Of a DNA stretch of 64,000 nt, positions 10,771 through 11,526 are shown one piece after another. The position numbers and the translations under genes are program-made. This stretch comes from Singulisphaera sp. GP187 (GTDB lineage Bacteria > Planctomycetota > Planctomycetia > Gemmatales > Gemmataceae), in assembly GCA_945905925.1 (NCBI GenBank), contig CAMDQN010000011.1, positions 1 to 64,000 on the forward strand. The letters are read 5' to 3'. The notes under the pieces were generated by a model. The model did not search any database. It was not told the origin of the DNA and worked only from the letters and a program-made list of their open reading frames with translations. Each line of letters begins with the position of its first letter. Position 1 is the first letter of the stretch.

Positions 10771-10827
10771 CGTTGGTTGTTGGTGCTCGTCGTGTCAACA
10801 AGATGCGCCGGCGCATCGACTCGAAAA

Positions 10828-11154
10828 TGGGTGAGGCGGGACTCGAACCCGCAAGCCCCTCACGGGACGGGGGATTTTCGTACCACTTCGGCTTTCGCCG
10901 CCCCGTACCGGGTTCGTGGTCTGGACTATACCTTGACCGTAGGCGCCCGCCGTAGGTCGCTGCCGTCTAGTCTCTACACTTTCTTGTTCTTCGCGTACCA
11001 ATGGGGCGCGACACATGTGAAGAACAAACTTAGCTCGGTGTTACCTCGCCGGAGCAGGGGGTTCACCGACTTTGACAGCATCCCACGGGTGGTTTCCCCT
11101 CCCGTGGCTCAATCGCTTCTAAGTCCCCTGTGTCTGCCATTCCACCACTCACCC
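10828..11154 (-). tRNA. tRNA-Leu(UAA), interrupted by a group I intron
   Basis: Exon 1 is 11121-11154 and exon 2 is 10828-10878. Joined, they give an 85-nt class II tRNA. The acceptor stem is GGGTGAG/CTCACCC with A73, the D stem GTG/CAC, the anticodon stem GGGGA/TCCCC and the loop CTTAAAA with anticodon UAA. A long variable arm has stem GTCCC/GGGGC, and the T arm is GCGGG-TTCGAGT-CCCGC. CCA is not encoded. The break falls directly after U34, the first anticodon base, which is the position occupied by the cyanobacterial and plastid tRNA-Leu(UAA) intron. All stems were paired by eye, and the pairing is perfect apart from one G-U in the variable arm. Confidence 0.95.
10879..11120 (-). ncRNA. Group I intron in tRNA-Leu(UAA)
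   Basis: A 242-nt insertion. Visible group I hallmarks, in order: the last exon bases CUU can pair with GAG (in GATTGAGCC) to form P1 with a U-G pair at the splice site; a strong P2 hairpin CCACGGG/CCCGTGG; a Q-like GTCGGTGAACC; an R-like CACCGAGCTAAG; the P7/S-region motifs GAGACTAGACGGC and AAGGTATAGTCC; and a terminal G (omega G) before exon 2. These match the small IC3 introns of cyanobacterial tRNA-Leu(UAA). No homing endonuclease is encoded. Self-splicing is expected from the intact core but is inference. Confidence 0.92.
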
Positions 11155-11202
11155 GACGTCCGCGAATCATCGCAGACGGACTACGCGTTGACAAGGCGAG
11201 GG

Positions 11203-11526
11203 TTACGCGAACATCTCGGCCATCTCGACCAACTTCTTCACCTGATCGGAACCCAGGCGGCTCACCATCCCCTGAACGGCTTCAAGGTCGGCGAACTGCA
11301 CGCCGCCCTTCTGCTTGGGCTTCGGGCCGCGCTTGGCGCCTTTCCCGCCCTCCTTCTTGATTACGGACTTGTAGTTCGAGATGATGTTGGGCGCGAGTTC
11401 GACGTTGTACTTTTCCTTGATGCACGCTTGTAATTCCAGTGGCGAGGTCTTCCAGCCTTTTTCGTCGAGTGCGGCCTTCACCATGACCTTTTGAGTCACC
11501 TTCCCGTCGCGCGTACCCTTTGCCAC
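11203..11526 (-). CDS. Conserved-looking small basic protein, unknown function
   Basis: A 107-residue protein starting at GTG, with GAGG 9 nt upstream. It reads MAKGTRDGKVTQKVMVKAAL at the N-terminus. A central segment (SPLELQACIKEKYNVELAPN then IISNYKSVIKK) looks like a small helical, possibly winged-helix unit. A basic linker GAKRGPKPKQKGG follows, then a short helical end (QVKKLVEMAEMFA). The layout suggests nucleic-acid binding, but I recognise no named family. It follows tRNA-Leu on the same strand order with ~50 nt between. A longer ATG frame to 11583 lacks a ribosome binding site and is less likely. Confidence 0.75.
   Translation of the reverse strand: MAKGTRDGKVTQKVMVKAALDEKGWKTSPLELQACIKEKYNVELAPNIISNYKSVIKKEGGKGAKRGPKPKQKGGVQFADLEAVQGMVSRLGSDQVKKLVEMAEMFA

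Follow-up and report, generated by a model that had tools for sequence, protein, structure and literature searches.

Cyanobacteria and chloroplasts are the best-known hosts of the group I intron of tRNA-Leu(UAA), a standard example of an ancient intron. Its IC3 subclass is marked by a small core, a tRNA host and GNRA loops L2 and L9, and another small IC3 intron occupies the anticodon loop of the Azoarcus-type tRNA-Ile(CAU). A gammaproteobacterial Leu(UAA) intron was reportedly described in a paper of 2002. In the portions of the published sources that we draw on, a putative group I intron splits Leu-TAA in Beggiatoa and Thiomargarita (PMC4853749), bacterial group I tRNA introns are listed only for cyanobacteria and alpha-/beta-proteobacteria (PMC4033280), and the term 'planctomycet' is absent (PMC3984707). 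The intron family is known; in the openly licensed literature we found no published report of group I introns in planctomycete tRNAs, and the distribution is informative. Here, the textbook case of an ancient intron is found patchily in a planctomycete family, with kin throughout the bacteria and long members that carry HNH genes.

The split tRNA-Leu(UAA) gene and its intron

The window, the whole 64,000-nucleotide stretch that we analyzed, holds a split class II tRNA-Leu(UAA) gene on its minus strand (11154..10828). The 5′ exon (34 nt; 11121..11154, minus strand, from ARAGORN and the sequence) ends in U34, and the 3′ exon (51 nt; 10828..10878, minus strand, from ARAGORN) begins with A35 and does not encode CCA. 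Between them lies a 242-nt intron (10879..11120, minus strand, delimited by RF00028 and the exon borders) that starts with AGAAGC and ends in the omega-G at 10879. Run with its intron option, ARAGORN calls tRNA-Leu(taa) at c[10828,11154], interrupted behind nucleotide 34 by an intron of 242 nt, which places the insertion point between U34 and A35. Because the same option makes two further calls elsewhere in the window, which we take to be chance, it is weak evidence on its own; the exons joined in silico are also called as tRNA-Leu(taa). These results agree, to the exact coordinates and borders, with the initial annotation, which had described a class II tRNA-Leu(UAA) with rejoining exons and a 242-nt insert directly after U34. 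Its expectation that gene callers would miss the split gene was likewise borne out: without the intron option ARAGORN makes zero tRNA calls across the window, and a likely spurious 218-aa open reading frame (10777-11433, plus strand) crosses the tRNA and intron on the opposite strand, a hazard for automatic annotation.

Infernal aligned the intron to the full length of the Rfam model RF00028 (Intron_gpI; 10902-11130, minus strand, model positions 1-253 of 253) with 35.8 bits; the E-value is 2.3e-7 when searched locally and 4.4e-7 against the entire genome. The curated gathering score of this family is 50 bits, and a Rfam family scan at gathering scores accordingly returned nothing in the window. 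Related introns in three other genomes (G007, G009 and G012) reach 40.6-41.5 bits, likewise below 50, indicating that the cut-off misses this branch of introns. The initial annotation had proposed this Infernal search and had named the lack of a significant group I score as evidence against its reading; that lack holds weakly, with respect to the curated cut-off, and does not extend to the E-value, which is significant.

All motifs that had been claimed for the intron, namely P1, P2, the R-type and S-type segments and the terminal G, could be located in its sequence (all on the minus strand). The internal guide sequence GAG of P1 (11108..11110, placed by alignment pairing) pairs with exon nucleotides C32-U33-U34, and the three pairs, including the U34-G wobble at the splice site, are kept in 24 of 24 homologues. 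From the sequence and pairing counts, the 5′ strand of P3 (TGCTGTC, 11074..11080) faces its 3′ strand GACGGCA (10961..10967), and the 5′ strand of P4 (TCGGTG, 11064..11069) faces CACCGA (11035-11040). The two strands of P7, assigned from pairing counts, are GACTA (10968..10972) within the R-type segment GTGTAGAGACTAGACGG and TAGTC (10924..10928) within the S-type segment AAGGTATAGTCC. In the alignment, GAAA tetraloops cap P2 (L2, 11093..11096; invariant in the 24 rows) and the P9 domain (L9, 10893..10896; nearly invariant). The window intron can be aligned with other U34/A35 introns over at least 200 columns. The TTGAGC in the guide segment was not taken to prove homology, because the need to pair with the exon dictates its GAG.

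Covariation was counted in 24 Leu(UAA) introns (seven of the genus, 16 of Proteobacteria and one of a Chloroflexota bin) on a hand-drawn P1-P9 structure that was derived from the window intron's own sequence and does not include P6. Pairing is seen in 88.5% of the cells of this structure as against 77.9% in shuffles, none of 500 of which reached 88.5%, and in 31.7-43.4% of cells when the structure is slid out of place. Changes on both sides occur at 26 of 62 pairs as against 21.2 in shuffles (2 of 500 reach 26), while further pair types do not exceed the shuffled level (56 vs 55.3). P7 is paired in 100% of cells, with double changes at three of its five pairs, and in one branch GACTA/TAGTC has become GAGCA/TGCTC; across the 24 relatives, compensatory changes are found in P7, P8, P6b and P2. 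The upper part of P8 is poorly conserved (46% paired). Folding energy was rejected as evidence for a ribozyme, since that of the window intron alone is unremarkable (z = -1.24). A P3-P7 core with a paired, covarying P7 is present in the window intron and, for gene and ribozyme taken together, we consider it very probable on sequence grounds that this is a group I intron of the tRNA (IC3-like) type.

The intron interrupts the sole Leu(UAA) gene that we found. In the window genome the pattern for an intact Leu(UAA) gene has 0 matches, and no Leu(UAA) occurs among the tRNAs that were fetched and decoded from the 66 RF00005 matches, which include Leu tRNAs with anticodons UAG, CAG and GAG, plus CAA within a tRNA array. 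Thus, the second intact tRNA-Leu(UAA) that would have spoken against the initial annotation did not turn up; the assembly is a draft of 251 contigs with a completeness of 96.64%, so the missing part may hold an intact copy. With no intact gene detected, reading of UUA would require the intron to splice, and we infer that the cell depends on this reaction. By analogy with known group I introns, the internal guide sequence of the primary transcript would pair with the end of the 5′ exon to form P1, placing U34. A guanosine bound in P7 would then attack after U34 and free the 5′ exon, which in turn would attack after the terminal G, ligating the exons into the continuous anticodon loop CU-UAA-AA. 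Genomes such as this one are likely annotated as missing an essential tRNA.

Distribution of tRNA introns and their endonucleases

Our intron search pattern requires GGACTTA and TTGAGC, so that unusual introns would escape the following counts. Among 95 Gemmataceae genomes, 16 show the intron pattern, 49 an intact gene, none both and 30 neither; in the 19 genomes of the window genome's genus, the corresponding numbers are seven with the intron, seven intact and five with neither. Across a phylum sample of 392 genomes, the intact gene occurs in 249 and the intron pattern in one, the window genome itself, leaving 0 of 391 sampled planctomycete genomes outside Gemmataceae with the pattern. A cyanobacterial sample gave pattern matches in 18 of 117 genomes, two of them intact genes. 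A scan of named genomes, with a pattern built to skip the usual cyanobacterial form, gave at least 118 stretches. Among the matches listed, introns at U34/A35 come from Gamma- and Betaproteobacteria, where they are widespread, and from Acidobacteriota, Clostridia, Chloroflexota, Cyanobacteriota and Gemmataceae. The initial annotation had framed the question as one of planctomycetes versus cyanobacteria. The Chloroflexota intron (L168) is nearly identical to one from Oxalobacteraceae and may reflect contamination of the bin.

Group I introns are not confined to Leu(UAA) in this group. RF00028 matches 31 of 99 relatives, with 41 matches in total, and by exon borders and in-silico joining 32 of these lie in tRNA genes: seven in Leu(UAA), three in Lys(UUU), one each in Thr(UGU) and Asn(GUU), four in initiator-like Met(CAU) after U33, five in other CAU tRNAs after U33 and 11 in CAU tRNAs after U36 (initiator-like and other CAU tRNAs were told apart by reading of the exons). 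Five of the 41 lie in or beside sequence that matches the 23S rRNA region of the window genome, and the other four have no assigned host gene. The window genome holds a second, stronger group I intron (contig C18:27130-27453, or L001:1501-1824; 74.9 bits), which cmscan places inside the span of a 23S rRNA match. The Lys(UUU) (L075, L077, L081), Thr(UGU) (L072) and Asn(GUU) (L035) introns leave clean tRNAs when their exons are joined, and these three planctomycete tRNAs are not known from the literature as group I hosts. Four CAU tRNA introns (L053, L054, L058 and L080) have a P9 end nearly identical to that of the window intron, CCAGACCAC..GGGGCGGCGAAAGCC, hinting at exchange between tRNA introns in Gemmataceae. 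We also noticed dense arrays of divergent tRNA genes in the window genome at C69:1000-3500 (L071), with 18 tRNA calls in 2.5 kb, and at C9:44900-46200 (L082), resembling those of phages or mobile elements.

The window intron itself has no open reading frame of at least 90 aa on its sense strand, and its 242 nt show neither room for nor sign of an endonuclease. Longer Leu introns differ: among the matches listed, 10 of the 11 that measure at least 420 nt (L096, L097, L103, L107, L126, L141, L150, L151, L177 and L208) hold an open reading frame of 134-163 aa with an HNH-like end (LELDHINGN..DN...NLR.LCPNCHA), which is antisense to the tRNA in nine of the 10. These introns are about 700 nt long and mostly gammaproteobacterial. 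Two of the encoded proteins were scanned against Pfam; one passes HNH_3 (30.1 bits, cut-off 24.8) and the other narrowly misses it (22.3). Judged from these motifs, the HNH endonuclease of gammaproteobacterial introns at this exact site is a possible homing vehicle. A different protein, PDDEXK_5 (165.2 bits), is encoded by a 677-nt intron of an initiator-like tRNA-Met (L048, in the Gemmataceae genome G047), and the shorter introns of three relatives (L049, L055 and L056) look as if they held remnants of its gene.

Origin, gain and loss of the intron

For the phylogeny, stretches with intact genes or without a recognizable 3′ exon were dropped, as were L101, L110, L192 and L206, which the intact-gene test also removed although they are probably introns that start with AAAT or AAAC; at least 98 distinct Leu(UAA) introns were retained. 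A first tree of 87 Leu introns shorter than 420 nt and 17 comparison introns from other planctomycete tRNAs places the window intron in a seven-row clade of its genus, inside a larger clade (25 rows, 98/98) that also holds introns of Betaproteobacteria and of some Gammaproteobacteria. In trees of 86 Leu introns (L120 was left out as a long branch), the genus clade recurs (100/99), eight further Gemmataceae introns form a separate clade (99/94) and the 12 classical cyanobacterial introns group among themselves (100/100), with the window intron outside. In the Leu-only tree the genus clade joins 18 proteobacterial-type rows at 80/68; restricting the sequences to the core gives 79/98 for this link. 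Among the matches listed, the best identity of the window intron to each outside group ranges from 62 to 72%, and Leu(UAA) introns of Betaproteobacteria come closest to it. The phylogeny that the initial annotation had called for thus yields a clade of the genus itself, with Betaproteobacteria nearest and cyanobacteria apart. One cyanobacterial intron (L127, from Myxacorys almedinensis) groups with those of Thiotrichaceae, outside the classical cyanobacterial clade (99/89), suggesting that cyanobacteria may receive introns, too.

Sequences on either side of the window gene match the corresponding position in other members of the genus, and at this one syntenic locus intron presence is patchy. 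A tree built from these flanks contains 12 genomes, seven with the intron and five without (G011 and G017, both intact, were left out since their flanks did not match); it needs at least four intron changes, at least three of them forced by starred branches. The window genome is sister to the intact G003 (100/100), and such with/without pairs make intron mobility testable. The window's flanks group with the intact genomes G003 and G015, unlike its tRNA exons, which show 4-5 differences to the carriers G012 and G009 and 7-8 to G003 and G015. In the eight-genome flank clade to which this applies, the 28-42 pair is G28-C42 in all four carriers and C28-G42 in all four intact genes. Small as these counts are, this looks like co-conversion of exon sequence during intron gain. 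The carriers' GGGGA anticodon stem is also present in G011 and G017, which are nevertheless intron-free (intact, G28); the rule that G28 marks carriers is therefore not general, which weakens the argument for co-conversion.

We infer both a donor and a homing route. Gemmataceae would have acquired the intron from other bacteria, probably on more than one occasion, and a pool in common with Betaproteobacteria is its most likely origin; a betaproteobacterial-type source is about evenly balanced between true and false in our estimate. Two entries are likely, given the two Gemmataceae clades in the best trees, although uniting the 15 Gemmataceae introns in a single clade is not rejected by an AU test (p 0.061, 0.118). 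The initial annotation had offered two other origins. One, in which a cyanobacterium passed the intron, or the tRNA gene as a whole, directly to the Gemmata lineage, would account for the shared tRNA, insertion site and guide motif TTGAGC, and a union of the seven genus introns with the 12 cyanobacterial ones is not rejected by the AU test (p 0.143, 0.196). It found no positive support and we hold it to be very unlikely: the best tree sets the cyanobacterial introns apart at 100/100, identity among the matches listed is 72% to the best betaproteobacterium as against 62% to the best cyanobacterium, itself the odd L127 that groups with Thiotrichaceae (cyanobacterial median 55%), and both the exons of the tRNA and its flanks are native to the genus and syntenic within it. 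The other, an ancient intron of a planctomycete (or bacterial) ancestor that was kept here and lost in most lineages, is disfavored and in our judgment unlikely. U34/A35 Leu(UAA) introns in at least six phyla of the sample and the broad congruence of intron and flank trees within the genus speak for it, but it would demand many independent losses, and it sits poorly with the two separate Gemmataceae clades, with the absence of the pattern from all planctomycete genomes sampled outside the family and with the prevalence of intact genes in the phylum.

After entry, the intron would have been gained or lost repeatedly at the one orthologous locus in the genus. Only the repeated-gain part of this proposal is challenged by a scenario in which the genus gained the intron once, long ago, and then lost it precisely several times without recent homing, a serious contender to which we give somewhat less than even weight. 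Because the intron tree is broadly congruent with the flank tree, both containing the splits {G007,G009} and {G002,G004,G013}, one old gain with several losses fits equally well as repeated gain; losses alone, however, would not produce a 28-42 pair that sorts the four carriers from the four intact genes. That the window copy is instead a degenerate, non-splicing relic or an assembly error, with a functional copy elsewhere, is extremely improbable. The sub-threshold Rfam score and the draft state of the assembly would be in keeping with such a reading, but P7, P4, P8 and P9.0 are intact, the intron shares 95% identity with introns from further genomes, one of which consists of a single contig, and no intact Leu(UAA) gene was found to take its place.

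Comparison with known systems

A broader proposal, which we advance tentatively and hold to be somewhat less likely than not, concerns the mobility of these introns. The tRNA anticodon loops of Gemmataceae and allied planctomycetes may be a hotspot for several independently mobile group I introns (in Leu UAA, initiator-like Met, two positions in other CAU tRNAs, Lys UUU, Thr UGU and Asn GUU), and the Leu(UAA) intron may currently be moving between species at one site with exon co-conversion, driven by an HNH endonuclease of the kind now seen in gammaproteobacterial copies. If true, the cyanobacterial Leu intron that textbooks present as 'ancient, immobile' would form a single branch of a mobile family found across the bacteria.

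Among described introns, that of the Azoarcus-type tRNA-Ile(CAU) is likewise small and lies in a tRNA anticodon loop, in another tRNA and at another insertion position. The putative group I intron of Beggiatoa and Thiomargarita (PMC4853749) interrupts the same tRNA, while Thiotrichaceae introns fall elsewhere in our tree. The Leu(UAA) introns of Betaproteobacteria and Rhodanobacteraceae share site and fold with the window intron and are the nearest outside relatives listed (up to 72%); they differ by a short P6b in the betaproteobacterial rows and, in Achromobacter, Rhodanobacter and Oxalobacteraceae, by GAGCA/TGCTC in P7. The cyanobacterial and plastid Leu(UAA) IC3 intron has in common with it the tRNA, the U34/A35 position, the size class, TTGAGC, the GAAA of P2 and the terminal G. 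By contrast, in the comparison with cyanobacterial rather than plastid rows, identity is at most 62%, the cyanobacterial introns form a separate clade (100/100), and the host of the window intron is a planctomycete.
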